Source: Pegea sp. RAD2-039
Taxonomy: Eukaryota; Chordata; Thaliacea; Salpida; Salpidae
NCBI GenBank assembly: GCA_034620365.1
Contig: JAQGEQ010000192.1
Coordinates: 739,001-803,000, forward strand
Reading direction: 5' to 3'
DNA: 64,000 nt
Below the pieces are notes generated by a model. It was given only the letters and a program-made list of their open reading frames with translations, did no database searches and was not told where the DNA came from. Made by a program: the position numbers and the translations under genes. Shown here one piece after another: positions 125 through 53,700 of this stretch; position 1 is the first letter of the stretch; every line of letters begins with the position of its first letter.

Positions 125-3100
125 TGAAAAGCAGCTTCGGAGTATTTGTAAATCTTTCGAAAGACAGAGGAGATTTGATGAATAATTTTTTCATTTGATT
201 TTGTGTGAATTAAATTTCCAAGATTTCTGTAAAGCTCGTGAACATCCGGGAATGTTCTTCCTAACGCAAACTCATCAAATGACCATCTATAAGATGAGTT
301 GATTAGTGATGAAGATCAAAAGATGAAGTAAAGACCTCAATTCAACTTCTTCATTAAGGTTATGAAAGCAATTGAGCGTTGCTATGACAATTTCAGTATC
401 TGTGCTGTGCAGGAGACTCATCAAAGTTGTTTCCAACTTCCTCTGAAATCAAATGAAGATGCAAGTTAGATGAAGATGAGGATCAGATGAAGATGAGGAT
501 CAAGTGAAGAAGAGGATCAGATGAAGATGGAGACGAGGATCAGGTGAAGATGAGGATCAGATGAAGATGAGGATCAGATGAAGATGAGGATCAGGTGAAG
601 ATGAGGATCAAATGAAGATGAGGATCAGATGAAGATGAGGATCAGATGAAGATGCAAGTCAGATGAAGATGAGGATCAAGTGAAGATGAGGATCAGATGA
701 AGATGCAAGTCAGATGAAGATGAGGATCAGATGAAGATGAGGATCAGATGAAGATGAGGATCAGATGAAGATGAGGATCAAATGAAGATGAGGATCAGAT
801 GAAGATGAGGATCAAGTGAAGATGAGGATCAGATGAAGATGAGGATCAGGTGAAGATGAGGATCAGATGAAGATGAGGATTAAATGAAGATGAGGATCAG
901 ATGAAGATGAGGATCAGATGAAGATGAGGATCAGATGAAGATGACGATCAGGTGAAGATGAAGATCAAATGAAGATGAGGATCAAGTGAAGATGAGGATC
1001 AGATGAAAATGAGGATCAGATGAAGAAAAGGATCAAGTGAAGATGAGGATCAGATGAAGAAGAGGATCAGGTGAAGATGAGGATCAGATGAAGATGCAAG
1101 TTAGATGAAGATGAGGATCAAGTGAAGATGAGGATCAGATGAAGATGAGGATCAGATGAAGATAAAATGAAGATGAGGATCAGATGAAGATGAGGGTCAG
1201 ATGAAGATGAGGATCAGATGAAGATGCAAGTTAGATGAAGATGAGGATCAAGTGAAGATGAGGATCAGATGAAGATGCAAGTCAGATGAAGATGAGGATC
1301 AGATGAAGATGAGGATCAGATGAAGATGAGAATCAGGTGAAAATGAGGATCAGATGAAGATGAGGATCAAGTGAAGATGACGATCAGATGAAGATGAGGA
1401 TCAGATGAAGATGAGGATCAGATGAAGAAGAGGATCAGATGAAGAAGAGGATCAGGTGAAGATGAGGATCAGATGAAGATGAGGATCAAATGAAGATGAG
1501 GATCAGATGAAGATGAGAATCAGATGAAGATGAGGATCAAGTGAAGATGACGATCAGATGAAGATGAGGATCAGATGAAGATGAGGATCAGATGAAGAAG
1601 AGGATCAGATGAAGAAGAGGATCAAATGAAGATGAGGATCAAGTGAAGATGACGATCAGATGAAGATGAGGATCAGATGAAGATGAGGATCAAGTGAAGA
1701 TGAGGATCAGATGAGGATCAAGTGAAGATGATTATCAGGTGAAGATGAGGATGAAGATAAGGATCAAATGAAGAAGAGGATCAGATGAAGATGAGGATCA
1801 GATGAAGATGAGGATCAAGTGAAGATGAGGATCAGGTGAAGATGAGGATCAGATGAAGATGAGGATCAAATGAAGAAGAGGATCAGGTGAAGATGAGGAT
1901 CAAGTGAAGATGAGGATCAAGTGAAGATGAGGATCAGATGAAGATGAGGATCAGATGAAGATGAGGATCAGGTGAAGATGAGGATCAAGTGAAGATGAGG
2001 ATCAGATCAAGTGAAGATGAGGATCAGGTGAAGATGAGGGTCAGATGAAGATGAGAACTCACCCAGGTTCTTTGAATTAGTTCAACTTCTTTATGCAAAA
2101 GAGGATTTTCTTGATTTTGAGCAATAAACTCAATACGACAAATAATCACTTGTTGTAACCATAGCAACGCGTGACGGACAACTTCCGGTGAAAGTGTCTC
2201 ATGAGGAGAGAAGTAATCACAAATCTTCTCAATGATACTGGTACTGCAACATCCACAAGGTTCAAAATTGATCTTAGGATCAAATCAACTTACCTGGTGT
2301 TCCAGAAAACAAAATAAAGTTGATCTGGAAACCAGATTACGTTAAGATGAGGATCATGAAGATGTAGAAGAGCATCAAAAGCATCACAAGATATCTGGAG
2401 GTTCACAGAACCAACAGATGTCTTCAAGACACATAATCCAGTCAACAAAGATATAAACTCATTGAAAGCAGCTCGTTTTGAAATTGTCAAATTCTACAAA
2501 AATATATGTGTTACTATGACAACGTGACGTCACAAACTTATATGTGTTACTATGACAACGTGACGTCACAAAGTCATACGTGTTACTATGATAACGTGAC
2601 ATCACAAACTTATATGCGTTACTATGACAACGTGACGTCACGATCCTATATGTTACTATGACAACGTGACGTCATAACCCACACCTGTAGAAAGATAGCA
2701 GGATCAGCAGTGATGAGACGAACAGTAAGTTGAAGAAGATCCTTGTATCCGGGTTGGATTTCCTTGTATCCGGGTTGGAGAGATCTTTTAAGACTCGCGT
2801 TCACCTTTTCCATCTTTTCGCGAAGTGACTGCTGCTAAGATACATCGATGACGTCATCACTGTTAGATGAGCAACATCACCTGAGTGCTTCGCGGTGATT
2901 GGTTTGAATGAGAGCCTTTGATCGCGCATTCGGTAAAGATCTTTCGAAGATTCGAAGAAAAAGAATAAAGACGCGACACCTTCGGCCACCAAGACATTCG
3001 CGGCTGCAATGATGACGTCATCAGATAGTGACGTCATCGCTTTCAAACCTCACCTGACTACAAATACAATGTAGAGATTGAATAAAAATGAATTTGTGGT

Positions 3101-5370
3101 AAAGACTGGTCGCAGGAGACGAATATTTGGGGACCAGGTAGTCCTGGTCAGGTCTTAATCGAAACGATGACACAAAACACTCAATGGCGGTCAGCTGCTC
3201 GCAGGTTCGAAGGACTGGACGCTCGAATATATCCTTCTGTTTGTATGAAGGTCCTAAAGGGTCGAGATGAAATTTTTTAGGGTCTTACTTGTAGTTCTGT
3301 TAGATAAGAATCAACTACAGAATGTATAGGAAGTTTAGGGTCTTGTTTGTTGGACACATAAGTGGACACTTTGAGTAAACGGACCAGGGATTCGACACAA
3401 GAGTCATGGATGCTTCGAGAATTACAATTCTGAAGATTTTTTTGAAGTTGCAGCAAAAAATCTGCCTAAAAAAATTACAGATCAAAAAAGTTTTCCGATT
3501 TCTTCTTCTTCAAAATTTTACTTTATTATTTTTAGTTGCTTCGGTGTGAGTCGAGATGGTTGTCATGACGCCCTGCAAACAAAATGGTCAATTACTGACC
3601 CGCTGTAAGTGGACTTACTGGACAGAAAGATATGAGAAGTATTTGAAGGGGCCAATAATAAGATGACTTTTTCTTGGAGCCGTCTGAAATCGACTCTATC
3701 GCGTCAAAGAGCTTCTCCGCCGATGACGTCAGTTCCTGGTAGTCTGATTGGTTCTAAAGAAGAAATCATTTTTGTAAGGACTTTTTTCAAAGATCTCAAA
3801 GACCTTTTTGGCTTCCCAATCCTTGTGGAGTTGATTTAGTTGAGTTGTAGCAGATGTAGAAACCCACTTCCATAAAGCCTAGTATCAAATTCAGATGATT
3901 AGGAAGTTTAAAGATCAGTTAAAGATCAAATACTTTATCTAAACTTGTTAGAAAAGCAACTTGAAGAGGTCTTCTTAAATTGTTGAAATGTTGAACAATA
4001 TCTGCGAAAATATGCAAATTAGTAGCTGAAGATATCAGCTGATCTCTCAGACCTTTAAGTAAGATTGTGATTCTTTCTAGATCAAGATGAAGATGTTGAA
4101 TAAGATCAAAATCACCATAATCTATAAACTCTTCTCCACTAGCAGTCAATTCTTTCAACCTGTACACAAGTATCATCAATCTGATGAGGATCAGATGAAG
4201 ATCAAGACCTGTTTGAGATCCGACAAAATACAATATTGAAATTATTTTCGCTGATCTGATAAAACACTCGAGAAGCAGAGGACTGAAGACTTCCAACTGC
4301 TGGCTTGTCATTGGCTGGTCGATGTAAGAATTGACAAATTTCTGGTAGAAGTTGTTTCGTCATGATGACGTCATCAGGTAAAACTGAATCTTTCTACAAT
4401 TAGAATCATTTGTAAATCATTATTCAGCATTTTTTCACGTGACTAACTGATAAGCAACGTTCTAGTAGCTCCATTACCACCAGCTGACAAGTATACAAGT
4501 TGTATTCTTGTTGTTCTCCATAAATCCTCTGGTGATAAACAGTTGGTTACTTCTACACTAATCTGTTTTTAAATCTAAATACAAACAGTTTCAAAATACT
4601 TACAATGATAGAAAGTTTTTTCAAGCTATTAGCTAGTCCATTAATAACAGCTGGACATTTACTTTGACTGATATTTATCAGACATTGCTTCAAATGCTCT
4701 AAATGAGCTGATAAACAAGATCCTTGTGTCACTGAAAGTTCCAACTAAAAGAAATTTGTTATTTGTTAATTACTGATATAAAAATATTAGTTTTTAATAA
4801 TGATACTTTTTAATTGAAAGTTTTATTTATGTTTTTTATATTCAAATTCTGATTTGTTTAACAAATTTTGAGAAAAATTTAAAGAATTTTGCTTATTTAG
4901 GAGTAAAATAAACAAAATTGAACTTTGTAAACTAACAAAGAACTTGTATTATTCCAAAAACAATATAAAATAAACAAAATATTTACTATGAGATATTTAT
5001 GTTTTAAAACACAACAAATTTACATAAAATAATTCAAATTACATCTAATATTTTTAGGACTAAAATGCAATTTTTTTATATTTTATTTCTACAAAAAAAC
5101 TCATAGAAAATAGATATCAATTTTCAATAAAGAAATTACAGAATTGATACAACATTAAATTTAAAAAATAAGAATTTATGAATGGATTGCCACATCTGGA
5201 TACCACAGAAGAAACCAAAATTAATTCAAAAAATTTGTTTTTAAATTTTTGTAAAGAATTTAAAAACAATTAAAGAATAAATTTTAGTCGTCATTCAATT
5301 TCATACTAACAAATTTATCTAGTCTTGATAATACAGCAGAAATCCATTCTTTTGGTCTTTGACATGACAT
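124..5370 (-). CDS. NF1: Neurofibromin, N-terminal part (gene runs off the left edge)
   Basis: Neurofibromin is a large Ras GTPase-activating protein. This window holds its first 15 exons, about 744 residues, upstream of the catalytic domain. Exons: 5370-5311, 4744-4604, 4528-4448, 4341-3934, 3878-3804, 3753-3619, 3572-3522, 3465-3289, 3236-3054, 3003-2881, 2831-2685, 2493-2294, 2243-2063, 442-336, 286-124. All junctions are GT/AG and in phase. Human-like blocks, recalled from memory, include RPKEWISAVLSRLD at the start, ECLINIS-like KQCLINISQ, RIYGEQQEYNLYTCQL, WPLQILLISFCP, MSWWPKV, LTVRLITADPAIFL and LLWLQQVIICRIEF. The ATG at 5370 gives an N-terminus matching the family. Introns range from 49 bp to about 1.6 kb; four contain TGACGTCA, and the long one carries a 17-bp array. 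A 21-bp in-frame duplication (QPGYK twice) lies at 2741-2779. The rest of the gene lies left of the window. Confidence 0.93.
458..2054. repeat. 17-bp satellite array in an NF1 intron
   Basis: Imperfect tandem copies of about 17 bp (agatgaagatgaggatc) fill almost the whole intron between NF1 exons 2243-2063 and 442-336. Variants replace the last part with gcaagtc or change one or two bases. The transcribed strand gives a pyrimidine-rich RNA. No gene is seen inside it. Confidence 0.93.
2505..2680. repeat. 36-bp minisatellite carrying TGACGTCA in an NF1 intron
   Basis: Five copies of a 36-bp unit (the last shortened), each with ttactatgacaacgtgacgt followed by ca. Four of the five keep an intact TGACGTCA. 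The array fills NF1 intron 2494-2684 and ends at the donor of exon 2831-2685. Confidence 0.88.
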
Positions 5371-5956
5371 AATGTTTACTTTCTCAGGAAATGGTTGATG
5401 TATCAACAATTTATCGATTTACTAAATTTCAACATTACATTCATTCACAAAAATCAGAAATTAATTGAAGTTTTTATAATGCTCGTCAATAAACTTGCTA
5501 AAATATGCCTTAAATACGATTTCGCCCAATTATTAAATTTTAAATTAGATTAATAAACAAAAAATTGATATTTAATGATTAATAATTTCTTTACTTATGT
5601 TTCAAAAGTTCATAAAATTAAAAAAAGTTATTTTATTATTTAAAACCATCGAAAAAGCTAGGTATAATTCGTACAAATAATACAAGCATATCATCACAAA
5701 AGCAAAACTGAGTTCATAAAATTGTAAATTCTGTAAAACTAAATTAATAATATCAAGAACAAAAGTAAACCTTTTTGCAAAAGTTTATTTTTTGTATATT
5801 TAGATTAGTAATTCGATATTGTTTAATAGAATAAAATTTTACTTGTTTATCGTATTTTTTTAAATCGTTTGAACTCAGAAAGATACAAGTAAGTTTTACT
5901 CATTCTTATTTTATGTAGACTCCAAAAAATTGTAAAATCACTCACTTGAAGCACAG
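5371..5956. other. Upstream region of NF1, nothing recognised
   Basis: AT-rich sequence between the NF1 start codon and a LINE fragment. It should contain the NF1 promoter and 5' UTR, but I see no distinctive motif. Confidence 0.4.
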
Positions 5957-10794: not shown

Positions 10795-12153
10795 ATGAAT
10801 TACTCAGAAAAACTTTTAAAGAATTTAAGAGACCAAATGCGAGCAGGGGTACATTGTGACATCCAGATACAGGTGGAAGAGAAGATATTTAACGGACACA
10901 AATGCGTTTTAGCAGCGACCAGCTCTTGTCTAAGAAGTCACATCGAGAAAGCGGATAAAGCATTCATCAAAAGTGGAACCACTAAACCATCTCAGATCAA
11001 ATTAGCTGGAATATCAAAGACGGGTTTTGATACTGTTTTTGAGTATATGTACTCCGGAGAGGTTGACATCAACAATGATACAGTTGATGTCATCTCTAAC
11101 GTTGCTATGGTGTTGGACATCACGGATTTGATCACTAAATGTGCGGATTACAAGAGGAAGCAGTTAGTGGTGACATCATATTCTACTTCTCCTAAATTAG
11201 GACCCCAACAACCACACGCCCCATCTCCAGTTATCGTCAATGTAGGTGAAGAAGCTGCATCTGAGACATCTAATAATGGATCAAATTATGATAGTGTTTT
11301 AGAAGCTGAGTCAGAAACCTCCGAAACTCAACTTAAATTTATGGACCTAACCACACCTCAAACTCCTGACCCTCAAACTGACCAGGACAATCAATTAGAG
11401 GTGGCCACCACCTCAAAATTAAACCCTGAAAATTTGAGCAGTTTTGTCCAATCTTTTGAAGCTATGGACAAGGACCCATCAGCCCTACCCACTTTACTTC
11501 CTATAAGGACCTCAATGCTGACTGAAAATCAGGACTGGTCCCAAACTAGCTTGGCCAATTTGGGTAATTTTAACCAATTTAATACTTTTAAATCGACGAA
11601 GAACCAAATTGCTGAAGAAGTAGACAAACAAGGCAACCTAACTTGGCGGTGTTTAATTTGCAACAAATTATTTCACAAATTATCCTATTTGAAGTATGTT
11701 CATATTCGATTACATGATGGTATTAGACCTCATACATGTACCATGTGTGGTAAAACGTTTGCAACTAAAGGCAATTTGCTGCAACATCATAAGAGTCACA
11801 TGGCTAGAAATGGAATTCTGCCATTTAAATGTCGTTATTGTAAGAAAGGTTTCTCGTTGAAAGGTAATTGTATGAAACATGAAAAAACTCACACAAAACC
11901 ATTTAGATGTGAATTTTGTTTGAAGTCCTTCACCTTAAAGCCCCTTTTGCTACAACATATTGCCAAGATGCATGAAAATGTAGCCGACCAATCCACAGTT
12001 GGTTCTCAATGCTCTAAATGTCATAAGGTTTTTTCTGAAGCTTTTGGTGATGAGTATCTTTCACATAAATGTGGAGTCTTTCTCACCATAGAAGCTGATG
12101 TAGATCAAAAAGTAAGCTCTCCTCTCAACATCTGCTCTTTGCCTTCAATTTAA
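10795..12153 (+). CDS. BTB/POZ domain C2H2 zinc-finger protein
   Basis: A 452-residue probable transcription factor in one coding exon. Residues 1-125 form a BTB domain, with the typical HCDIQIQVEEKIFNGHKCVL block and later FEYMYSGEV. A low-complexity Ser/Thr/Pro-rich linker follows. Four C2H2 fingers lie from about residue 284: CLIC...H, CTMCGKTF, CRYCKKGF and CEFCLKSF, then an irregular fifth (CSKCHKVF...HKC). The first has 13 rather than 12 residues between Cys2 and His1. The ATG at 10795 follows a good 3' splice site (ttatttgctag), so an upstream non-coding exon is likely. A polyadenylation signal, aataaa, lies at 12573. I cannot assign an orthologue. Confidence 0.9.
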   Translation: MNYSEKLLKNLRDQMRAGVHCDIQIQVEEKIFNGHKCVLAATSSCLRSHIEKADKAFIKSGTTKPSQIKLAGISKTGFDTVFEYMYSGEVDINNDTVDVISNVAMVLDITDLITKCADYKRKQLVVTSYSTSPKLGPQQPHAPSPVIVNVGEEAASETSNNGSNYDSVLEAESETSETQLKFMDLTTPQTPDPQTDQDNQLEVATTSKLNPENLSSFVQSFEAMDKDPSALPTLLPIRTSMLTENQDWSQTSLANLGNFNQFNTFKSTKNQIAEEVDKQGNLTWRCLICNKLFHKLSYLKYVHIRLHDGIRPHTCTMCGKTFATKGNLLQHHKSHMARNGILPFKCRYCKKGFSLKGNCMKHEKTHTKPFRCEFCLKSFTLKPLLLQHIAKMHENVADQSTVGSQCSKCHKVFSEAFGDEYLSHKCGVFLTIEADVDQKVSSPLNICSLPSI

Positions 12154-24147: not shown

Positions 24148-24617
24148 CTTAAAATGACCTTAAGTCTCTATCTGATTAACTTACTGGTGATTTTTGTCAA
24201 GATTGAACTCTAGTACCACTTTTTCATCAACTTATTTACTCGCAAAAACAGATCTTTTATTTTAACCAATCTTTTGAGCTTCAAAACAACCTCAGATATT
24301 TTGATCAACAACTTAATTTAATATCCGTTTATTAAAAGATCTTAAGAAATCGATAATTTTTTCAAATAAATTTGAAAATCGGTTTCTTGTTATTAAAGAC
24401 TTTCTCTGAAATACAATTTTCTGCTACATCTTTTTACGAACGTCAGAATTTGGCAGTTAAGGTCAACGTCTTTTACCTGACAACTTTCTAATCTTTTAAA
24501 ATCTCAAATAAGAAAAATTCAAACGTCAAACGAAGGTTGAAAGGTTTTCGAAATTGAATAAATAGAAAAGAAAAAGTCAATCATAAAAGAAATTCTGGAA
24601 AAATCGCGTTAAAGACG
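24148..24617. other. Spacer between connexin and KATNAL2
   Basis: About 470 bp holding the connexin promoter side and the KATNAL2 3' UTR. No motif stands out. Confidence 0.4.
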
Positions 24618-27831
<3,214 letters not shown>

Positions 27832-30800
27832 TTTGAATGTTTAATTGTAACAAAATTTTAATTGTAGGCATGTTACAGTAGTAACAGCTACATCTAATGT
27901 AGACGCTCACTACGATAAAAAAGTGCTTCTAATCGTAAAACTGAAATTTATTGGAAAAAATATTAGACAATTAAAGAATTAAATTATTAAAATAAATTAG
28001 ATTCATGTACATTAAACGTAATTAAACTTGTCTAGAAAATTTTTTCATTATTTTCCAATAACTTTTACGGCTTATTTCTACTTTTTTTATTTTTAAATTT
28101 GAGCCAATTTATGTTTTTGAACATAATATAAAAATAAGTTTTATTCGATATTAGAAACCAGACTAGCTGAAAGTTAATAAAAAAATTCCATTAAAAACAA
28201 ATTATCTAACAATCTTTTTAAATGTGATTTTTTTTTTAATTAGGTTTTTATGATTGATGGTTTTAAGATACTTTATATCATATGACTGTTTATGAGTCGG
28301 AGAAAAAAATGACCCAATAGTTATTTCTGGCGAAAAATATTATTCAATGTTCGATATTAAATTTATTTCGTCTCTAGTCTTGAAAATAACTGATAGCAAC
28401 GATAAGTAATTAAACGCACAGATTTTGGAAGCTTAGTTCAAATACGTCCAAAATATATACATTGAATTGAAATAAGTTTGGAGTAGTTCCAATAGTTTGA
28501 TAGAAAGCTTTTTGAAAGTAACTTATATTGATATCTAGAACTTTTGTATTATAAAATTTCCCCTTATTGCAATTCAAATTTGAAAGTCTGTTTTTGTGAC
28601 ATAATATCTTCCAATTAAAAGTTACTTTAGTTATTAAAAGGTATCTTATTTCTAGCTTTAGTAACAAATCATAACAAAACTTATTTTTATATTTTTTAAT
28701 GTATTTTTAAAAATTAATTTTGATTTATGGTTGAGATCAAATAAAAATTCCAGATAGTTATATAGTTCGACTATATTGCAATTTAACGGCAACATACAAT
28801 TGGTAGAAGTATTGTTGTGATTGTACAGCCAAATCAGTCAATGTTTTCTATCTATCAAAACGGAATTGGTTTCAATTGTTTCAATATTGAAAAAAAAAAC
28901 ATCTAAAAGTTTCTTATTTTTAGATTAAGTCAATTAATTTGATAAAATAAACAAACGGAAAATTATGGCTTCTAAATTAATTGGCTTTTGTTGTTTTTGT
29001 AAACAAATGAGGTAGGTAATAAAATTTAAAATTCTTTTCTGGAAACATTTTAAATTTATTGAATTTAGAATTAAGAAATAAATTTGTAGAATCCATTAAA
29101 TTTCTAATAACCATTTCAACAGTTTTGTTATTATTCCACAACTAATACAAAAAAGTTTTTCAATGAATCAATCTAATTACAGAATACTTATTGTAAACAA
29201 GCTTTTAATTTTAGTTACTTTCCTAATAATATCGAAAATCCTAATTAAATGATTAAAAAAATTGATCAAAAATTAAACCAATATTTTCGATCAAAATAAA
29301 CTTCAAGATAAAGAAACTATTCTAGTAATTTAAAGAAAGAGATAGCATATAAAAACATTATCTGTTTTGTTATTGTGATTCCTTCTATAATTACATTAGT
29401 AAGTACTTTAGGTTTCGATGAAACCGTTTTCTGTTGAACACAGACATATACAAGTTTGTTTAAAACTGAATTCATTTTCGAATTTAATCTTATTTGTTTA
29501 CTTCATGGCTTAATATTGAATTCAGACATTTAAAATAATGACATTTCAATTGACAAACTTTATATTTACTTTTTTCAACTTGAATTTTACTGTCTGTTTA
29601 TCTAGTACATGTCTGCGGCAATAATTGCAGTCAATGAAAAGATACTGGTGCAATAAGATGAGTTGCCTGTTGGTCAAAGACATCGATTAAAAACTAGTTG
29701 GATCTCGACTTTTTGCCAACTTTATTTATTTCAAACTTTTTTAAAGTTAATTGCAATAAGTTAAAGAAAGTGAAGGTTTTATTGCAATGTTGTTGCTATT
29801 TAATTCTAAAAAGTATTGATTTTAAAGCCCATCTATTGTTAATAAAGGTTAATTTGACTTCTAAATGATATATTAACATTTTCAATAAATAAATTCGTTA
29901 GATTCGGATGTAGACTACATTTGAAATTCTATTATTAGATGAAATGAAGAAAATCTAAATTTTTCATCGTTTATCAAATGAAATGTGACGTCATCACTTT
30001 ACTAATCAAGGAAACAGTACAAGCGTCATTAAACGTTGTCTTACCGACGCCGCGTGCATAATTAAAATAGCTTTAATAAGGATGAATTAGTCGCCACCTT
30101 CAACAGCAAATTGTTCAAATCAACTAAAAAATGTTTTTTTTTTGGGCTTTTTTATCTAAAAATTTTTCTTTCCATTTTTGTTATTTCTACAAAGTAACTA
30201 TTTTAAGCAATTTCTTTTTTAGTTATTTAAAAAAAAAACTGAACAAATTGGCTTCAAACCAAAATGGTTTGAAGTTTGAGTTAAAAATGATGACTAGTTT
30301 AAAATCTTGTTCCAGACTTATGACAAAATTCATGACAAAATTTGCTTACAAAAAAAAATTGTTAAAAAATATCTAACAAATATTTAAATATCTTCAAGTT
30401 TAATGGAAAATTTAATCTTAAAACCTAAAGTCACTTCAAATTCCTTCAACTTTTTCGTTTATCAGTTTTTAGTTCCAATTTAAATTTTATGATTGTTGAA
30501 TCAATTGGAAGACTAAAATAGAAATTTCGAGAAAAGTACTCAGGAAACACTACCTTGACTGCTTTTCAAATTCAAATTGACTAACTTACAAATCTATCGA
30601 TTTTCAGCAAGTCGACAAACTAATGTTGTCTTTATCACTGTTGAAATATGAACTAGTTAACTTGAATTTTTGCTTGTTAAGATGGTGTTAAGAGTGAACA
30701 GAAATCAGTTTTGACAAAAAGGAAATTCTATTTAAGAAAATTTGACTTTTTGAACGTTTTAAATTTGAAGTTTATTGGCAATTAAAAGTTGGCTAAAAAA

Positions 30801-31241
30801 TTGCGGTTAAAGTCATAAAAAAGAAGGAATAAAAAAACTGTTAAAAAAGCGATGAAAAGAAGAATGATTTGTTGTCGTGACAACAGTATCTTAAATATTT
30901 AATGATCATGACTTCATATCTAATCAAGCTACTTGATGACGTCATATTTAACTTGTAAATATTAGCTTGTTGCTATAAAATCCCACGCCATCAGAAGTAG
31001 TGACGTCATCACTTTCTCAGATCAATTACAAGTTGTTTGTTGTTCTGATGACGTCATCATTGAATAAGCTGAGAACCTTTAAAGACGGAGTGATGACGTC
31101 ATCACCCAGCACTTTTTTCAGCTACGTCAATACTACGTCATCATTTTAATCGACTTTTATTCAAACGAACGACATCAACAACAACAATAAAGGAAATATA
31201 AAAAAGCGATTTTGAACTACGTCATCAATGACGTCATCATC
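27832..31241. other. Gene-poor spacer between KATNAL2 and the Ras-like gene
   Basis: AT-rich for most of its length, with no supported gene. The last 310 bp, nearest the Ras-like gene's stop codon, changes character: it contains about five TGACGTCA copies (30937-31230), most extended to TGATGACGTCATCA. An isolated copy lies near 29986. Confidence 0.5.
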
Positions 31242-33022
31242 TTAAAACAGTCGACTGTTGTCATTAGAAGAGTTTTTTCTGCGCATGCGCATAATATCGC
31301 CAACTGCTTCTCGTAATGAGCTTCGGCGTCGATCTTTACGTTTAAATCGTGATGCTTCTGATGACGTCATCATGACGTCATTACAAGAAACCCGATCCTC
31401 TTCCTCACTACCAACAATAAACATCGGTTTCGAGTCGATGACGTCATGACGTGATGAGCGTGTGACGTCACTACCACTCTTGAAGAATATCTTCAGCAGC
31501 CGCTGCGTCGGACTTCGCTTCTCGGCGTCGGTGATGACATCATCAGTAGAGGAGATGACGTCATTAAATCGAAATCGCGAGTTGTTCAGAATGAGAGGGG
31601 CGGAGTTGGGAGGTGTGGTGACGTCATCATCGTCATCATCTTCTAGGGACTCTCCGTCGGAGTTTGCAGGAAGTCGGATTTTCAGATTTTTTCGCTTGAT
31701 TGGTCGCGATGACGTCGCTGTCGGTGATGTCACGTTGCTAGTAGCAACAAATGCATCATCGTCAGCAGCGGAGAAATCACTGAGAGAAGCATCAGTGGTT
31801 GTGGAAGACACTCGACTATCTGGAGAAGATCCTTCTTTATGACGTCGCCACCAGACTCTTTCGCTTCTTCGCGACCCACGTGACACCCTGTCGACACGCC
31901 CGGATGACCTCTGACCTTCTTCCGCTTCCGCTGGATGCTCACTGAGCGTTCCCAAGGATCGACATTTTGATGGTAACGTTTGATATTTTGTTACATCTTT
32001 TGATGACGTCACAACCGGTTTCGGTGGACGCGGTGGTGGTTGGGGCGTTGAAGAAGTGACTAAAGGGGCCATTCCATCAAGAGAAAGTGATCTGGATCCA
32101 AGAGGAGGTCTTCGGTAGTGATCTAAGATCATTTGCTTCACGTGTGTCAGACTCTTTTTTCGACGCTTGTGACCACTAGATGGCGTTGTTGAGTTATTGA
32201 CGAGCTGGAAGAGCGTCGCGAAGACTTTCTGGACTTCTGTAAATGATTCTGCTGCTGACGATTCTGAAAAGTGGCAAGATCCGATCTTATCAGCAGCTCT
32301 TCGTCCTTCTTGAACCCCAACTTCTCTACAAACATAAAAACCATCAGCACGCGCGCGCCAACTGATGACGTCATCACTTACCGAAGATGCTCCAAATCAG
32401 ATTTGTTGCCAACCAGGAGGATCGGAGTCAAGGAGTCCCTGGATGCAGGATTTTGGTCACAGCGCATCCTAGTGGCCACTGAGTTGGCAAATTCGAATGA
32501 GTTCCGATCAGAGATGTCGTAGACAATCACACAAGCATCACACTTCGAGACTACTCGTGTCAGATCTTCTTCATTCTGTGATGACGTCATCATTAGTGGA
32601 TGCTGGTGACGTCATTCAGCTTACCTTCGAGACGAACGAATCGAGAATTTCAGTTGAAATCGAAACTCCGGCGAAATTCACTTCCTGTTTATACGTCATT
32701 TCTGTTAACAACAAAATGGCGTCAATATGTGATGATGACGTCATCACCACTACGTACCGACGCCCGAAGCATATTCACCGATGAAGCGTCGCGTCAGAAA
32801 TCGAACTACAAGAGCTGCAAAAACGGAAGTGACATCATTAGCAAATATATTGACTCTTATCAGAATCAAAGATTTCATCGCGGCGCACAAAAGTCGTGGG
32901 CCAGAAATAAAAAAAGCCAGAAAAGTGATATAAATAAATGTTTGTCTTCCTGTAGCGTGTGAAGAGTCAACACTCAAATATTTGCAGTCCAGACTCTAAC
33001 GATGACCCTTTGATGACGTCAT
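30935..33022. repeat. Dense TGACGTCA palindrome cluster over the Ras-like gene
   Basis: About 18 copies in 2.1 kb. They lie in the 3' flank, in the last coding exon (encoding D-V-I, M-T-S or V-T-S) and in all four introns. This is the densest stretch for its length apart from the MRCK coiled-coil region. Confidence 0.88.
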
Positions 33023-33203
33023 AAAGTAATCACGACTCCGTTGTTAGTCGCGGGTGACATTATGTGGTTGTTTTAGGAATTTTTTAGAGAATATTTTGAG
33101 TAAAAAACGATTTTTTACCTGATTTTCCGACGTTTCTGTCTCCGACGATTAAGATTCGAATCACTGTTGATCCTGGATTTCCATTTTCGTTTTTTCCCAT
33201 CAT
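31242..33203 (-). CDS. RERG/RASL-type Ras-like GTPase with long disordered tail
   Basis: Five exons: 33203-33119, 32814-32758, 32701-32625, 32575-32382, 32325-31242, joining to 498 residues. The P-loop GDRNVGKS is at 21-28, switch I EMTYKQ at 48-53, G4 NKSD at 130-133 and G5 SESSA near 158. LVVRFLTRRFIGEY and YDISDRNSF resemble RERG and RASL11/12 proteins, and THVKQMI resembles the end of RERG. The G3 site reads ILDSFVSK instead of LDTAGQE, so the usual DxxG glycine and catalytic Gln are absent; GTP hydrolysis may be altered. About 270 residues of Ser/Arg-rich, probably disordered tail follow, far longer than the family norm, and much of it is built from TGACGTCA copies. The family is clear; the exact orthologue is not. 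Confidence 0.85.
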
Positions 33204-35029
33204 AAGAAAATTTAAATAAAAAAATTTGCTACAAAAAAAAGGGTTTCCGGAAAAAATTTTATAAAAATAAAAAAAGCTAAAAAAAAAAAATTTAAAGTTT
33301 TTAAAAAGATTTCGAAAAATTAAAAAAAGAAAATAGAATTTGAATTAATCGATTTTTTATTGATCAACAAAACCAAGTAAAAAAAGTCAAAAAAATTTCT
33401 TAAAAACCCCAAAATAAGTTTTCAAATTTTTAATCCTTTCACCATTAACTATTTTCTACAAATAATTTTGCTGTTTTCTACCAACAAATACAATTAAGTT
33501 GATTTTTAGCAAACAAGAAAAACTTTTTTTCAATCAATGGTTTGCTTGTAAACACTTAACGAGCTCTTTACTGTCACCACGTGGCCGAAGTATATCTCAA
33601 CTACTGCATTAAAAGAATTTAATCTTTACGTGACGTTATCATGACGTCATACGTGCTCTTTGATTGAAAGATTGAGTCTTCAAGTTTTACTGAATTAAAA
33701 ATTTTAACAAAAAGTTATTTATTTGAAGACAAAAATGTTTTCAAAAAAAATTAAATCTTAAAAAATTTGAATTTCATATTTTGAGTATCTATGAAAAAAC
33801 TAATAAACTTGCAGTAATAATCAGGCAAAAAGAGCTTAAATAAATTAATTCAACTTTTCAATCGTCGAGTTTTTTAACTTCTGTCTTCTTTTAATATCTT
33901 TTCGTCTTTTAAACTTTTTCCTTTTTTTTTATTTTCTTTTTACAGTTTTGACCGCTAGCGGCGCTGTTGCAAATCAGACATTGATGACGATTGTTTATTC
34001 CAATTCAATATTCAGCATTCACCTTTTTTGTCCATCTTCAAAACCAACCTAGAGCCTTTAAAGCTCGCCTTCGAAGAGACTTTAGCGTTTTGACGTCATT
34101 AAAACCGTTGATCTCGAAGTGCACGTGTTTTCTTGTCTGTATAAAATAAAAAAATTAATTTTTCATCAAAATTTATCATAAATTTTTCATATTTGTAAAA
34201 TTATGATTTTTTCTTCGAATTTTTGGATATCTGCCAGCATTAAAGTTGCTATGATAACTATTCATTCAAATTGTAACTAGTTGATTCAAATGCTTGCTTC
34301 TGATTGGCTGATTAAGTGATTGATGATTTAATTTCAATTTTGAAGAACTTTGTCGCGTGACTAAATCATTGGAAAATGATTTCACTTTTTTAATTTAACA
34401 ATTTAAATTATCCTAAAAATTCTAAATTAAAACTACAGATATAAATAAATAAACATTTCTCTTTAGTTACATTAGTGATAAATATAGTAAATAAATATCA
34501 TTAAAATTATTTCACTTAAGGAGAAGTATTTGAAAAAAGGTAAAATTGATTAATTAAGAATATCTTTAAAGATTCTCATTAAGTATCAATTAGGTTTTTT
34601 ATTCAATTTTATAGAATTTAGTGGTATTTTATGAGATAGTTATATTTTAAATATAAAAGTTTAACATTTTTTTATGTAAAATGTGTTTTTCTTCAATTTG
34701 TTTTAAATTATTTGCCTTTAAATACAGGTGTTGTTGATACTATAAACCATAAAAAGAAAAGCAAAAACGTTTTATTGAGTGCCACTTATATAGTGATTCA
34801 ATTCAAACTTGTCTGGAAAAACTTTCTATTTTTTTCATAAGACTAAAAAATAAACAACTTGTCACCAAAAAAATGTAAAAAAGTTATCGATGCAAGATTT
34901 ACAAATGATTTTTTTGTAAAATTTTCAAACTTTCGCAAATTAATTATTTATCACATAAAATTTTAAAGGCTTTCAATCAATGTAAACTAAATAAATTATA
35001 TATTTGACAACTACAGACAGAGGCGTAGA
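33204..35029. other. Upstream region of the Ras-like gene
   Basis: AT-rich DNA with two isolated TGACGTCA sites, near 33644 and 34093, roughly 440 and 890 bp upstream of the start codon. In animals TGACGTCA is the full CREB/ATF site, so these could be promoter elements, but in this genome the word is common for other reasons. Confidence 0.35.
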
Positions 35030-35111
35030 GCTGCGATGGCCGAGTGGTTAAGGCGTTGGACTCGAAATCCAATGGGGTCTCCCCGCGCAGGTTCAAACCC
35101 TGCTCGCAGCG
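35030..35111 (+). tRNA. tRNA-Ser (anticodon CGA)
   Basis: Acceptor arms gctgcga and tcgcagc pair perfectly. The anticodon arm is ttgga-ctcgaaa-tccaa, giving anticodon CGA. A long variable arm follows, as expected for tRNA-Ser, then T-arm ggttcaaaccc. The A box tggccgagtgg and B box ggttcaaac are intact. No intron; CCA is not encoded. A T5 run at 35116-35120 is a good RNA polymerase III terminator. Confidence 0.96.
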
Positions 35112-37511
35112 TAAATTTTTAAAAAAATTTTATTTGCTTTAAAAATCGATTAATTCATTTCTGCCAATTAAAGTAGACAATTTTGTTTGTTTTAATTAAC
35201 TTTGGCGGTTTATCTGAAACCTTTTGCCAAATTTTGAAGCATTTAACAAAGACTGCTGTTGTATAAGTTAATTAAACAGCATATCAATTTTCGTCAAACT
35301 AAATTCTTTTTTTTTTTGTATTATTTAAATATTAAAAAAATAATCTACCTTTTGTCGTCTGTTATTTTTCATAATCTATTCTAATATTAGAGCTTTACAT
35401 ATAACAATTGTTAAAAGAAACGACAAAGCTCGTCACAGAATAAAGTTTAGCTTCGATTTACAGCATTTAAAAAAAAATTGAAGAAATTGTTAGATTGAAA
35501 GTTCAATTATTCCTTATTTTATTTTTGGAATAATTTCGAAGCTTATTAAAGCCATTAAAACGCGACCAACGATAATATACAGAAGCTGAAGTCCAAATAT
35601 CGATTCTAAAAATCTTTTTTTTACCCAAAACTCATTTTTAACAAGTAAAAATTGAAATCATTCAAGCGGAACATTACATAGTGTGAATTCATTGAAGCGT
35701 GAAGAACAGAAGAGTTTTTAACAATAACGTTTTAGGCTGTTAATCTAAGATGAAATCTCAACAAAATTTGCGATGAAAAAAATCTAGAAAAATCTTGTAA
35801 ATTAGATAAGTCTAAACTTGACTTGTTCTTTAGAATTTAAAAGAAACATGAATAATTAATTTATCAACATTACTTAGCCAATTAAATGATTGTTCTAGAT
35901 AAAAAGCTGTTTATGGTTTAAAGTCAACTATTCAACTAATAATTACAAAATTACAACCTTCAAATTTTAATCATTTTTTATTTAATGTAATAATTAAAAA
36001 AAAATTTTTATTAAAAATTTGAAGTCAACAAAATATTAGAATTAAATTTCAGTAAGAGATTTGTTTTTAAAAATTGTTGTTAAAAGAGCTTTAAAATCAA
36101 CAAATAGAAAATATAATTTCAACTGTAATAACAAACTGAAAAACAAGCACAAAAATTCGACTTTTTTGTAGCTGACAAATAATTTTTTATTATAAATGAT
36201 TCAACCAATCAGCGATCAGCATTTCAAATTTTTGCAATTTGAATTTCTTTAAATCAATTTCTTTCAAAAACTCTATTTTTAAAAAAATCTTTTATTTTTG
36301 TGATCTCTGTGTGATCATGGCGACGATGACGTCATTACAAATGGGCTGCGTCTATTAAAACGTCATCAAAGTCTACAAAGAGCGGTCATTTGAATCTTTC
36401 ATCTTGACCGACTTCAAAGCCACTTTTATTCCGGGAATTCCCCCTCAACTCAAACTTCTGTTGTCATGGCAACCCACAATATAACCTTTGAAGTGACCAG
36501 TTGTTGGGCTCGATGATTGAAATTTAGAGGAAAATGTTTGGAAACTCTCAAAACTGCCGCTTATTCACTGAAATCTCGAAAATTGATTCAAACTTCACGA
36601 CGGAAATTTGGTTTTTTGCATTTTTCTAATTTTCTGTTGTTTTTGTAAAATTTGTGATTTTTGAATAATCGAAAACACTTGACTTTGAGAATGACGTCAT
36701 CTGATCAAGTGTGAATGACGTCACAACGTAGAACGCGATGTTTGAAAAGCTGAAAAACTTTATTATAATCTAAAAATAATTATTTTTTTTGGTAAATTGA
36801 AAGAAAGTTACAAAAATGTTGTTTGTTGTTAAATAGAAATTGATAAATGCGAAGATCAAGGTTACGATGTGAAGAAGTTGTTTTGACGATTTTCATCAAT
36901 CGCTTTTTAAAAATAAACTTTCTAAAATTAGATTTAAGCTCACTAGCGCCGTCTAGCGGATGAAATTTTAAATTTATTCTAAAGCTCGTTGAAGGTTTAG
37001 TTGCTTGATGTAAAGATCTCTAAGTTTTTGTGTCTGAAGATACTGAGGTAGCACACAAGATGTAAGATGAAATATTTTATTATCAAACTGAACATGCCGA
37101 AAATTTGTTTATTATTTTTTGTCATTAGTCAGTTTTGCTACTGTCATATGAGAGGTGAAAAAGAGGTTTTTGGGACAAAAAAAAAAGGAAAAAAAAAATT
37201 CAAAAGATGGATTTGGAAGAAAATTGTTTATTTACATTTGGGAAGAAAAAAACAAACAAACAAACAGATAAAAAACAAACCCAAAATTTAGTGGCGTGAT
37301 TTTACAAAAACACTAAAAACTGATACGAGATTTGATATATAAAGATAACGACAACATGGGGGTAAGCACCTAATGACGCGGGTGACGATGTACCGCGTAA
37401 AAATAGCGACCGCTGAGTGGCGCTGTTTGATTTTGAGTGGTCAGGATAGAGAAATGAAAATGATACAAAAAAGTGGTGACGTCATCAGTCGATAAAGCGC
37501 GCGACGTCGTC
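35112..37511. other. Spacer between tRNA-Ser and the end of the MRCK gene
   Basis: AT-rich, with a less AT-rich patch near 36300-36500 containing TGACGTCA near 36327. Further copies lie at 36692, 36715 and 37479. The end nearest 37511 is MRCK 3' UTR. A short frame at 37067-37291 looks like a signal peptide with a basic tail; see findings. Confidence 0.4.
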
Positions 37512-47167
<9,656 letters not shown>

Positions 47168-50100: not shown

Positions 50101-50757
50101 AGTTGCTTGATTGAAATAAAAAATAAATTTGATGAAAATACCGAAAGATTTAAAATCCATATATCGAGAAATTATAAACAAATCTTCTAAAAGATCATTG
50201 TGGAAATTAGATTTCATTTGAAATTATTAAAAAATGAAAATAAATTTGGAAAAGATGAACTTTTCCAAGTTTTTAACTTTAAATGAAATTAATTATTTCT
50301 GTAGTCATCACAGTTGTTAGGATATATTGATGCGTTTTTTGAAAGATCTATTTGATTTGAAAATGATTTTTAGTTCAAATAATCACTTCATTACAACATA
50401 AAAATAATCAGTAATATTTACAGAAAGTAAAAAAACTCAACTTGGTAGTGGTGACAGAAGCAACTGATAAGATCTGCAGTTTTCAAAATTGCTTACTGAT
50501 AATTTCGTGCACCATCATTTTGCAGTGAAAGAACCAAAATGGTCTTTTTTGTTTATAAAATAAATGAAAAAAAGCACCGAAGAAAAACTAAAGTATGAAA
50601 TAAGGTTGCTGCTGCCGCTGTATTGAAATATAAGATTAAAAAATTCAAAGCAACAAAACTGTACCAAGTGATTAGAAAAAAAAGTGAAAAAGATTTTACA
50701 AATATGCAACAAAATCAAACAAGGTAACAAGACTACTAAAGCAGGCATGTGAGTGTA
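47168..50757. other. Gene-poor region upstream of MRCK
   Basis: AT-rich spacer holding the MRCK promoter side and the 3' UTR of the nectin-like gene. No TGACGTCA and no supported gene. Confidence 0.45.
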
Positions 50758-53700
50758 TTAAACGACATGAGTGTCTGGTTGATGTTTACGAATCTGTGCA
50801 TATTCAACTGGTTCCTCACTTCGACGAACTGCACCTGTAGAAGATTTCACTTCTAAAAGTTTGTAAGCAAATCATAATTTCAGATTTGTTGATAAAAATA
50901 TCAGAACAAAAGTTCCTCAAAGTAATAAATGGTTTATCTACTGGTTCAACAAATGGTTCATTTACTGGTTCAACAAATGGTCCATTTACTGGTTCAACAA
51001 ATGGTTCATTTACTGGTTCAACAAATGGTTTATCTACTGGTTCACCAAATGGTTCATTTAATGGTTCAACAAATGGTTTATCTACTGGTTCAACAAATGG
51101 TTTATTTACTGGTTCACCAAATGGTTTATCTACTGGTTCACCAAATGGTTCATTTACTGGTTCACCAAATGGTTTATTTACTGGTTCAACAAATGGTTTA
51201 TTTACTGGTTCACCAAATGGTTTATTTACTGGTTCAACAAATGGTTTATTTACTGGTTCAACAAATGGTTTATTTACTGGTTCAACAAATGGTTCATTTA
51301 CTGGTTCAACAAATGGTTTATCTACTGGTTCACCAATTGGTTCATTTACTGGTTCAACAAATGGTTCATTTACTGGTTCAACAAATGGTTCATTTACTGG
51401 TTCAACAAATGGTTTATCTACTGGTTCACCAATTGGTTTATTTACTGGTTCACCAAATGGTTTATCTACTGGTTCACCAAATGGTTCATTTACTGGTTCA
51501 CCAAATGGTTTATTTACTGGTTCAACAAATGCTTTATCTACTGAATGGTTCACCTTCAACTAACTAATTAAATGAAATAAATATCAAATATTCACGAGAT
51601 CGCGTTATCGCGTCAATTATCAAAAGTAAACAACTTTTATTATAAATTTGAATCAACATGTATTCGGTTACCGTGGTTACTAGGTCTGTAGGTTGTGTGG
51701 TCGATCTCTGAATAGTTACCCTCGTAGCCTCTCGCTGCCGGCGCCGGAGGTTGCTGTAAACATCGATGACGTCATCAATCGCGTATGATATGACGTCATC
51801 AAGCACTCACCATGTAGTTGAAGGGTTTGTGTTGACTAAGACGCGATGGAGTCCGACTCGTCTGGTGATAGGGCGAGTTTCCGGGGCGTTGACGTCGCGC
51901 CTATAAACAAAAACAATGACGTCATCTCAGCACAATGACGTCATCTCAGCACAATGACGTCACTAATACTCACTTCAGGGAAAATCCAATAAGGCTAGCA
52001 AGTTAGTAAGCAGAAAAATATTAGCAGCGCAAAGAGGCGATGACGTCACACTTACTTGAAAGTTAAGAGACGCGCGACTGGTGATTGTTCCTTTCATGAC
52101 GTCATCGTCATCAGCGGTTGGTTTTGCAGCATCGATGGTGGTGTATGGATTAACTTCGATGTCTACGTCATGATTGCCTTCATCATCAGAACTCATCTCA
52201 CTTCCGCTGTTGGGGAAAGAGGGCGGAGGTCCTTTGGGACTTGGGGGAGGTCCCCGGTTGCTCATATGCTCGATCATTGGGCGGCGACTACAAACAACTC
52301 GATTAGTAATGACCAGTGATGACGTCATCAGCACCTGTCGCGCGCAGTCTGGGGCAAATAGGGACCAGGATCTTTAGATCGCGAAGGTTTTAAGATAAAG
52401 ATGTAAACAAGAACTATGATGACTCCAAGGAGGAGTAAAACTCCAATCACAACTCCCACAATCGTTCCCGTCATCGATGATTGCATCACTACAATTGATG
52501 ACGTCATTGATGATGACGTCACTGATGAGGTAGTGGTCACCTGGTTGCGGGGTTAGAATCTCGTCTAAAGTCATCACTAACATCTTGCTTCCTTGTACGT
52601 TGGTTGCTACGCATTTGTAGCTGTCATTCAAACGACCCGCGCCTTGCGCGTCGATGTCGATGACGTCACTGATGATGTCATCACCGCTGGGTAGTGACCA
52701 CATGATAGTGGCGGGTGGGTTTGCGTCGGAAGTGCAAGTGAGTTGAGTTTGATCCTTGTTTGGTGTGATTGAGGGGACATCCGGGGGGTCTGAAGATCAA
52801 GAAGAAGATTGGGATCAGATTAGGATGTTGGAAGACTTACATGAGACGCTGAGAGTGATGGATTTTTCGAGAAGTTCCTTGAAAGCGAAATGAGAGACGC
52901 TGCAAGTGAAGAGTTGATTGTTGTAATATTTAGAAGGTGAGATGAAGAGTTTGGATGTAGTGGTGAAGAAGTCATCAGATTTAGAAACAGAACTGAAAAA
53001 GGGCGTTAAAAAAAGTGATAAAATCAGGGGCACCTACCTATTGTGAGTGAATTGTAAGTTTCGTTCTGTATCCCACGTGATTTTAGCTTCCGGTTTACCT
53101 GTAGTGATGACGTCATCAACACATCAAACAACACGTGACAACTTACCGTTGAGCGCGATGCATCGAGCTGCTTCAACTAACCGATTTTCTTCTTCCGGAA
53201 GTCTTGCTACAAGATCGATATTAGAGGATACTTCAACTTCCGGTTGGACTAAAAATTGAAAGATGTTGAAAAGACTTTTTCAGATCACTTGATTGAATTT
53301 ACTATAAACTTGGAGGTCGGTTTCTATGATTTCTTCTTCAAATCCAAGGCCATTTGAGGTGCAACTAAACCTTCCTTCATCTGCTAATGTCACATGATCA
53401 AGCTCTAGTGATCCAGTTTGTGATACGATGATCCGATCTGATCTTGATGTTGGTGTTTCATAAAATCTGAATTCAGTTTTATCATACTGAAAAATAAATA
53501 TTAGAATTTGATAAAATATTAAATATTGAAACTTACAAATATTTCTGCGAATAATTCATCGTCAAATTTCACTTTTACTAAAGCATTTTGTATACGAAAA
53601 ATGCCTGAATTGAAGCAAGTAATTGAGGTGCTTGACCCTTTTACCACTGATACAGTGTAGACGCCTGAAAATTGAAAGTCTCAGCCTTTGTTGGTCACTA

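Follow-up and report, generated by a model that had tools for sequence, protein, structure and literature searches.

An octamer of CREB/ATF type is iterated across the genome of the tunicate Pegea, chiefly in pockets rich in CpG within and beside some of its genes

The DNA analysed here is a 64-kb stretch of the Pegea genome (the window), in which several genes hold copies of the palindromic 8-mer TGACGTCA (Table 1). We use CRE for the exact 8-mer only; its longer palindromic forms are ATGACGTCAT, GATGACGTCATC and the 14-mer TGATGACGTCATCA. The names MRCK, BTB zinc finger, Ras, TPR, bZIP, BAH and C5 DNA methylase come from database matches, and KATNAL2, RGK, MAK16, STIP1, Ig receptor, LINE, CREB, JUN, DNMT1 and DNMT2 are tentative names, some of them given by eye. 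For two of the window's proteins the nearest named relatives among the protein matches are from ascidians. In four genes exons and introns were delimited by hand; a joined protein, P0009, matches two of the boundaries in the Ras-like gene, and those of KATNAL2 are drawn tentatively after the human sequence. Many CREs that seem exonic in six-frame open reading frames actually lie in short GT..AG introns, and one further CRE of the MRCK gene stands directly behind the stop codon.

Table 1. Genes, CRE clusters and arrays in the window.
Feature	Position	Strand	CREs and remarks
First cluster	2525..4373		9 CREs (4 in the 36-bp array), in and around a minus-strand gene
36-bp tandem array	2496-2674		4 CREs
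Katanin-like AAA gene cluster	25291..26813		9 CREs, 6 of them in short introns
KATNAL2-like short introns	25291-25352, 25444-25493, 25883-25931, 26744-26813		Hold 6 of the 9 CREs
Lone CRE	29986..29993		AT-rich DNA without assigned gene
3' flank of Ras-like gene	30937..31241		5 CREs, counted over 30900-31241
Ras/RGK-like GTPase gene, last coding exon	31241..32325	-	7 exonic CREs
Ras/RGK-like gene, four introns	32326..33118	-	5 CREs; introns 32326-32381, 32576-32624, 32702-32757, 32950-33118
DNA without assigned gene	33642..36723		5 CREs, at 33642, 34091, 36327, 36692, 36716
MRCK (CDC42BP) kinase gene, CRE-rich part	37477..45977	-	21 CREs in 16 introns, 8 exonic
16-bp-unit tandem array	39502..39809		CACGTG E-box core; within an MRCK intron
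MRCK exon	42266..42430	-	CRE in conserved peptide, SDVIH in 4 of 5 compared proteins, VDVIH in Ciona
MRCK block	45199..45537	-	Two CREs in each of three 44-51-bp GT..AG introns, one per intervening exon
MRCK 5' introns	46179..46971	-	5 of 5 without CRE; 3 CpGs in 278 bp
Ig-domain receptor-like gene	51754..53146	-	12 CREs; 6 of its 10 introns contain 10 of these
19-bp array	51913-51962		3 CREs
15-bp duplication	52496-52528		2 CREs

Exact counting gives 83 CREs in the window, where 0.5-0.7 are expected, with 47 copies of ATGACGTCAT, 25 of GATGACGTCATC and 15 of TGATGACGTCATCA. An earlier note on this DNA had counted about 85 copies by hand against roughly one by chance, had seen many of them extend to the 14-bp palindrome and had recognised the 8-mer as the full CREB/ATF site, all of which holds. 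Its picture of copies scattered singly and not in one array fits most of them, which are dispersed with unrelated flanks, but nine or more of the 83 belong to small tandem arrays or duplications. The spread that it described does reach several genes but is uneven: 74 CREs (arrays masked) fall in 25.3-53.2 kb and none at 4.4-25.3 kb or 53.2-64 kb, the first of all starting at 2525 and the last occupying 53108-53115.

The 105.7-Mb genome holds 27,792 CREs and 1,972 copies of the 14-mer, and 969 and 0 copies of the respective reversed control words. Markov models of orders 1-4 predict 400-790 CREs, an excess of 35-70 times, and the count of the reversed 8-mer ACTGCAGT agrees with what such models predict for it (957-1,033 at orders 1-3; order 4 gives 1,626), which rules out a composition artefact. 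The genome-wide comparison with a Markov model that the earlier note had proposed thus came out in its favour, and the copies are not confined to one recent duplication, having unrelated flanks and a genome-wide spread. This confirms that a tunicate genome can have a single palindrome iterated throughout at dispersed sites. CRE density is 1.3 per kb in the window and 0.26 per kb on average in the genome, a roughly fivefold difference. In 269 kb of local sequence (20 sampled loci, three clusters and the window after masking of its arrays), TGACGTCA ranks first by far among all 256 eight-base palindromes, with 162 copies against 2.0 expected; the runner-up is TCACGTGA (19 against 2.0), and GCGCGCGC occurs 6 times against 0.2. 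The sampled loci, placed at round coordinates and not drawn at random, hold 40 CREs, half of them in the single locus L021. Eight CRE-rich stretches contain 121 CREs where 0.59 are locally expected, about 200 times as many. The papers listed in literature searches included no report of such palindrome iteration in an animal. Abundance of this kind, for the most part in pockets rich in CpG within and beside particular genes, is unusual in an animal, and any function of it is putative.

In the CRE-rich part of the window, observed-to-expected ratios are 399 in introns, 644 in 3' flank, 116 in other DNA and 75 in exons. Introns hold about 15 CREs per kb and exons 2 per kb; among the 47 short introns of four genes, those of one gene not being independent observations, 28 carry a CRE and 19 do not. 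A first tally had placed KATNAL2 25494-26743 (unmodelled) and the large tandem MRCK intron under exon, and the refined tally adds one KATNAL2 intron and masks arrays, its exon class still containing unmodelled KATNAL2 introns. Within short introns a CRE may start anywhere from 4 to 49 bases in. The number per intron (mean 0.85, variance 0.69) is not over-dispersed, so that pairs are not required and hairpins between paired CREs of an intron are excluded.

The exonic copies arose in place. When the eight exonic CREs of MRCK are compared with five proteins, four lie in alignment that is gap-free throughout and in two more a single protein shows a gap; of the remaining two, one adjoins a gap and one lies in a length-variable linker. 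Since most align with few or no gaps to other species, the aligned exons show an origin by substitution, and insertion into exons is excluded. The peptides encoded by the exonic CREs of the Ras/RGK-like gene are kept in P0009, a relative of 91-92% identity, bar two changes: a T to S at the edge of one CRE and an S to T just next to another. An embedded repeat or MITE is likewise excluded, the flanks carrying little information past about 3 bp on each side. A second haplotype copy of positions 44060-45900, which would allow CREs to be compared with neutral sequence, was not found in the genome, and a search of viral contigs for DNA of the close relative of P0009 gave no match.

The flanks that do carry information are graded, as RTGACGTCAY. 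Among 324 half-sites, position -1 is A in 237, G in 70, C in 12 and T in 5, with G at -2 in 173 and T at -3 in 173; loci L001-L004 were left out of these counts because they had been fetched for holding the 14-mer, and their inclusion gave the same picture (L002 overlaps L005). The two halves vary independently (14-mer, 19 observed against 18.5 expected; A..T, 83 against 86.6; Fisher p 0.17-0.87). Template-driven correction of the palindrome through a hairpin would couple both flanks and is therefore rejected. Apart from the products of CpG decay, hardly any halo of single mutants surrounds the exact word: 22 of its neighbours number about 1,184 each, against 1,154 for those of the reversed control, and TGATGTCA and TGACATCA jointly reach 11,070 genome-wide, TGATGTCA standing at 1.7-2.8 times expectation. 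A weaker bZIP variant, TTACGTCA, is enriched 9.6-fold within 250 bp of CREs (11 against 1.1) and stands at 0.9 elsewhere; AP-1 TGAGTCA is not enriched within the same 250 bp (0.6). The motifs given in one study are GATGACGTCATCA for FOS, ATGACGTCAT for FOSL1::JUN and TGACGTCA for CREB (PMC9164029). With its bZIP-like flanks and independent half-sites, the palindrome behaves like a bZIP (CREB/ATF/JUN) site, at which binding is putative. There are 12 bZIP matches (PF00170) in the genome, and the two that were read look CREB-like and JUN-like by eye.

CREs are also associated with CpG. With CREs masked, CpG observed/expected is 1.18 in the 28 CRE-bearing introns, or 1.04 when three more bases are masked on each side because the preferred flank can itself contain a CpG (CGATGACGTCATCG), against 0.26 in the 19 CRE-free introns (Mann-Whitney p 3e-4). 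Under the extended mask, the values at 0-15, 15-60, 60-250 and 250-1000 bp from a CRE are 1.34, 1.24, 1.01 and 0.74 in the window, 1.47, 1.03, 1.05 and 0.82 in three fetched clusters, and 1.49, 1.08, 0.79 and 0.46 in 19 sampled loci, from which L021 is excluded because it holds half of the sampled CREs. The control word TGATTTCA has no comparable CpG trend with distance. In the same 19 loci GC climbs from 0.28 far off to 0.37-0.43 towards CREs. A second CpG-containing palindrome, TCACGTGA, occurs 4,614 times genome-wide against 237 for its control, so that the excess is not limited to one word, a limit that the earlier note had named as support for its view; it is enriched 20-fold within 250 bp of CREs and 4.5-fold outside, and 10 of 41 copies lie within 250 bp of a CRE, against 2.5% at random. 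Among 11 matches to the C5 DNA methylase family (PF00145), the three that were read appear by eye to be DNMT1, a DNMT1 paralogue and DNMT2. The link between CpG and CREs could be effect, cause or the result of a shared cause.

We tentatively favour the reading that CREs are bZIP sites under weak selection in unmethylated pockets, and give it a little under half of our credence; binding, methylation state, selection and causal order are all inferred. Point substitutions would have created CREs singly, tens of thousands of times over, and the sites would then have stayed intact. Most occupy short CpG-undepleted pockets of a subset of genes, in introns, in a 3' flank, at exon positions that tolerate change and in some spacers. 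In the germ line or the early embryo, bound bZIP dimers would keep these pockets open and unmethylated, and their CpGs, CREs included, would escape deamination, CpG methylation elsewhere preventing or erasing CREs. Tunicate populations are usually large, and a weak benefit per site would therefore suffice to hold so many. Several observations count against this reading: the intron density is far beyond any need for regulatory sites that we know of, coding exons hold CREs too, the bZIP complement shows no obvious expansion, and the AT-rich cluster L021 (20 CREs in 10 kb) has no CpG gradient past 15 bp. A bolder possibility, which we doubt more than we believe, is that Pegea has the first highly iterated palindrome (HIP) of a eukaryote, in which a bZIP-tied process or collective benefit would write and rewrite TGACGTCA across unmethylated chordate DNA, introns and coding sequence alike, turning a transcription-factor site into a structural punctuation mark of the whole genome from which unmethylated pockets are seeded.

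It is unlikely that a mutation or repair process of HIP type, of no use to the host, turns near-misses into TGACGTCA and mends copies that have been damaged (one example would be a site-specific modification linked to mismatch repair, a mechanism put forward for the HIPs of cyanobacteria), even though the exact, dispersed word with its almost absent halo, its excess in all compartments counted in the CRE-rich part of the window and the origin of exonic copies in place would all suit it. The graded flanks, independent halves, enriched TTACGTCA and second transcription-factor palindrome TCACGTGA fit binding better than one enzyme and one word; the methylases read resemble DNMT1 and DNMT2 by eye, and no enzyme of TGACGTCA specificity is known to us. 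The earlier note's likeness to HIP1 accordingly holds for the dispersal through exons, introns, 3' flank and spacers, and fails in these four features and in the way copies track CpG-undepleted DNA (L021 excepted). In a study of HIPs, a change of HIP word in three cyanobacteria accompanies the gain of matching methyltransferases (PMC4390886). Passive survival of ordinary CRE numbers in unmethylated DNA, with deamination elsewhere, is highly improbable: it would account for the avoidance of CpG-poor introns and the surplus of TGATGTCA, but the roughly 200-fold local excess contradicts it as sole cause and no other CpG palindrome in the local set comes near TGACGTCA, so that survival alone is insufficient.

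We think it rather improbable that CREs are meiotic hotspots of M26 type, at which bZIP-bound sites would open chromatin and draw double-strand breaks, GC-biased conversion then enriching GC and CpG around them. Conversion normally eliminates hotspot-making alleles, so CRE copies should fall in number, not rise. The rise of GC towards CREs in the 19 sampled loci is what such conversion would produce, and a fission-yeast study gives M26 as ATGACGT, bound by Atf1-Pcr1, with breaks beside the site and not on it, but also states that not all CREs act as hotspots (PMC9775316). A role of the palindrome, single or paired, in splicing or transcription of very short introns has a slight chance at best: the intron density and the share of short introns with a CRE speak for it, and the variable start, the 19 introns without a copy and the CREs in exons, 3' flank and spacers speak against it. 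That a mobile element or recent duplication carries the word deserves next to no credence. The copies in small arrays and duplications would fit, but copies share nothing past about 14 bp and so do not form an element family, are spread genome-wide and, in MRCK exons, mostly stand in alignments with relatives that are gap-free or nearly so; one CRE-rich stretch of 1.8 kb occurs only once in full in the genome, its partial matches of 44-50 bp lying in one array only.

The nearest known systems each match in part. Cyanobacterial HIP1 and other HIPs are likewise short palindromes dispersed far beyond Markov expectation, coding sequence included (PMC4390886), and the Pegea octamer exceeds that expectation across the whole genome, in coding and non-coding DNA and outside any one repeat family; Pegea, however, is a eukaryote, its leading word is joined by a second in excess, its flanks are bZIP-like and its halves independent, its copies are mostly tied to CpG-undepleted pockets, and no cognate methyltransferase was identified among the three PF00145 stretches read. 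The CRE of vertebrate CpG-island promoters is the same octamer in CpG-preserved DNA (PMC1796609, PMC2267717), and in Pegea too it is accompanied by CACGTG E-boxes and two NRF1-like palindromes, TGATGTCA-type variants being the commonest neighbours. By the vertebrate definition of a CpG island (PMC1796609), CpG near Pegea CREs is commoner than in the surroundings, though not clearly so in L021, but GC is mostly 0.35-0.47, and lower in L021, rather than above 50%. In the human genome the CRE is reported to occur at 25% of the expected number (PMC1796609, whose authors do not show the data), as against the genome-wide surplus in Pegea, where copies are dense in introns and also occupy exons and 3' flank. 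Among other mouse-promoter sites that contain CpG, those of ETS and SP1 show no greater enrichment close to CREs than elsewhere, and the BoxA octamer does not occur, a pattern that counts against the bZIP reading.

M26/CRE hotspots in such numbers are not known to us. Those of fission yeast have the ATGACGT core in common, are bound by a bZIP pair and act within coding sequence (PMC9775316). In Ciona, one study describes gene-body methylation in a subset of genes (PMC6389100); CpG-poor and CpG-rich segments alternate in Pegea as such a mosaic predicts and the genome has a gene for a C5 DNA methylase, but the alternation, with CpG observed/expected as a proxy for methylation, runs within a single gene and follows one word.

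If the reading of CREs as bZIP sites is true, the genome of one chordate supplies about 28,000 natural replicates of the same transcription-factor site, and within a gene introns bearing it can be compared with introns free of it. It could then be tested whether the methylation mosaic of invertebrate genomes is moulded by bound transcription factors, and whether a word can spread genome-wide, coding sequence included, through weak selection or through a repair drive. If motifs were simply counted in such a genome, very many of its genes would be taken for CREB targets.

Our count of the CREB/ATF octamer TGACGTCA (hereafter CRE) in the window upholds the large excess claimed in the earlier note, which gave about 85 copies: there are 83, against 0.5-0.7 expected, and 15 copies of the 14-mer palindrome that extends it. 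The window is G000:C3:739001-803000 of an assembly of 105.7 Mb and 387 contigs, across which the octamer occurs 27,792 times and the 14-mer 1,972 times, compared with 969 and 0 for the reversed control words. Markov models of orders 1, 2, 3 and 4, trained on 200 kb of sampled loci, predict 525, 400, 590 and 791 octamers, so that the excess is genome-wide and amounts to 35- to 70-fold, whereas the control word stands at 0.6-1.0 times its own prediction. The copies are clustered: in the first 1.56 Mb of contig C1, 29% of gaps are shorter than 500 bp (3% expected), and 7 of 20 sampled loci hold all 40 copies found there, 20 of them in the single locus L021.

The word is also sharp. The exact copies belong to 64,917 genome sequences within one mismatch, among which the CpG deamination products TGATGTCA and TGACATCA together account for 11,070, and the remaining 22 neighbours average about 1,184, compared with about 1,154 for the neighbours of the reversed control. 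Eight stretches, picked for CRE richness, contain 121 exact CREs (0.59 expected) and 27 of all 24 neighbours together (about 12 expected). Few neighbours beside so many exact copies means that the copies are young, or kept, or restored. The Ras/RGK-like gene has seven exonic CREs, and protein comparison with a 91-92% identical relative finds the encoded peptides kept, with two changes (T-to-S at the edge of one CRE, S-to-T beside another); over so few residues, this conservation does not exceed that seen in the remaining protein. Such peptides would speak against all copies being very young.

Four minus-strand genes were modelled by hand: the CDC42BP-type kinase gene (MRCK), the Ras/RGK-like GTPase, a katanin-like AAA protein and an Ig-domain protein. 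Protein matches confirmed MRCK (closest in Phallusia, Clavelina and Ciona, 51-52%). For the protein of a single-exon BTB zinc-finger gene the best named match comes from Ciona (P0004, 41%), and a further relative in JGI/lgn data reaches 90%. The animal is therefore most probably a tunicate, though not one of those named. The 47 short introns of the four genes (GT..AG, 44-83 bp, median 51, 2,570 bp in total) carry 40 CREs, at least one in each of 28, starting anywhere from 4 to 49 bases inside the intron and without over-dispersion of the counts (mean 0.85 per intron, variance 0.69). With arrays masked, all modelled introns together have 14.8 CREs per kb; exons have 2.1, the Ras-like gene's 3' flank has 14.6 and other DNA of the CRE-rich stretch has 0.6. 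This stretch is bordered by 20.1 kb and 10.3 kb without any CRE. Once local composition is allowed for, CREs are in excess 399-fold in introns, 75-fold in exons, 644-fold in the 3' flank and 116-fold in other DNA; the excess is therefore not confined to introns, and the lower exon value is what a limit set by protein constraint would give. When the eight exonic CREs of MRCK were compared with four tunicate proteins and one reptile protein, four lay in gap-free alignment in all five, and for two more a single protein had a gap; one CRE falls within a conserved peptide that reads SDVIH in four of the proteins and VDVIH in Ciona. The exonic copies of MRCK thus arose by substitution. Tandem arrays fill or dominate four MRCK introns, most others being about 50 bp long, and the 16-bp array unit contains a CACGTG E-box.

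Features and loci with their positions (G000, genome assembly; C-numbers, its contigs)
Feature	Position	Remark
BTB zinc-finger protein gene	window 10795-12150	single exon
Tandem-array introns of MRCK	window 37909-38766, 39502-39809, 40497-42059, 43168-43756	units of 15, 16, 20, 40 bp
Switch from CpG-poor, CRE-free introns to CRE introns in MRCK	window 44013-46971	abrupt
Two open frames resembling LINE-type reverse transcriptase	window 59641-60400	by eye; CRE-free DNA
L021, CRE-rich sampled locus	G000:C22:100001-110000	AT-rich
L025, PF00145 copy	G000:C57:823601-826500	single frame; one of two read
L031, PF00145 copy	G000:C32:36201-38700	single frame; one of two read
L026, JUN-like bZIP	G000:C34:57901-58700	

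CREs mostly lie in CpG-undepleted surroundings. With CREs masked, CpG o/e is 1.18 in introns with a CRE and 0.26 in those without. Widening the mask by three bases per side gives 1.04 (28 introns) and 0.26 (19 others), or 5.3 and 0.96 CpGs per 100 bp (Mann-Whitney p 3e-4, which overstates independence because introns of one gene are neighbours). CpG is absent from 14 of the 19 introns without a CRE, but also from 6 of the 28 with one. The five 5' introns of MRCK lack CREs and have 3 CpGs in their 278 bp; of the eleven introns that follow, ten contain CREs. Binned by distance from a CRE (0-15, 15-60, 60-250 and 250-1000 bp, wider mask), CpG o/e was 1.34, 1.24, 1.01 and 0.74 in the window, 1.47, 1.03, 1.05 and 0.82 in three clusters from C1, and 1.49, 1.08, 0.79 and 0.46 in 19 sampled loci; in finer bins the fall is not strictly monotonic. 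The control word TGATTTCA gave no such trend. Against the link, the AT-rich cluster L021, with its 20 CREs in 10 kb, showed no gradient beyond 15 bp.

Some, but not all, CpG-containing promoter sites accompany CREs. The E-box palindrome TCACGTGA is a second over-represented palindrome (4,614 genome copies, 237 of its reversed control); in the first part of C1, 10 of 41 have a CRE no more than 250 bp away (random placement would give 2.5%), and its enrichment is 20 times expectation within that distance, compared with 4.5 times in other DNA. For TTACGTCA, a weaker bZIP variant, the corresponding values are 9.6 and 0.9 times, and NRF1-like TGCGCATGCGC occurs twice within 250 bp where almost none is expected. 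Within the same distance AP-1 TGAGTCA is not enriched (0.6), and this count has no BoxA octamer CTCGCGAG. Two further sites show no difference between CRE neighbourhoods and other DNA: ETS CCGGAAG (2.8 near, 3.8 elsewhere) and SP1 GGGCGG (2.5 near, 2.1 elsewhere).

What is recognised appears from the flanks of 162 sites (324 half-sites), the four loci chosen for holding the 14-mer being excluded. The base directly before the octamer is A in 237, G in 70, C in 12 and T in 5; the next positions outward favour G (173/324) and then T (173/324), with little signal beyond. The two flanks are independent (Fisher p 0.17-0.87), with 19 full 14-mers (18.5 expected) and 83 A..T pairs (86.6 expected), which is the pattern given by two half-sites of a dimeric protein. 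That independence speaks against a 14-bp unit having been duplicated. It also tells against correction templated by a hairpin, under which the flanks would be coupled. The FOS, FOSL1::JUN and CREB motifs in a table of PMC9164029 agree with the flank consensus.

We consider it quite possible, approaching an even chance, that the copies are bZIP-bound sites living in unmethylated pockets and maintained there, a binding and a methylation that we infer from sequence; bZIP binding may make the pockets, or the pockets may merely allow CREs. HIP1 is a cyanobacterial octamer linked to methyltransferases (PMC4390886). A HIP1-like drive that writes TGACGTCA would explain sharpness and spread as well as bZIP occupancy does. 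However, such a drive would lead one to expect neither flanks that are graded and independent nor an excess of another transcription-factor palindrome, and we regard it as unlikely. Loss outside the pockets cannot, as sole cause, make a 200-fold local excess. PMC1796609 reports that Ciona CREs have no positional bias, that 62% of human canonical CREs surveyed around start sites lie in CpG islands, and that human CREs stand at 25% of expectation ('data not shown' there). A search limited to open-licence papers turned up no tunicate, nor any other animal, described as having a CRE iterated across its genome.

The genome encodes a C5 DNA methylase domain, which makes CpG methylation in this animal plausible. 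Seven of the PF00145 matches each occupy one open frame (832-873 aa), and C57 has two of these seven, on opposite strands; four such copies (three on C32, one on C52) score far below the other three. L031 has C5 methylase and BAH matches, lacks the usual PCQ and ENV motifs, and may be an inactive DNMT1 paralogue. The basic region of the JUN-like bZIP at L026 reads AAHKC where human JUN has AASKC.
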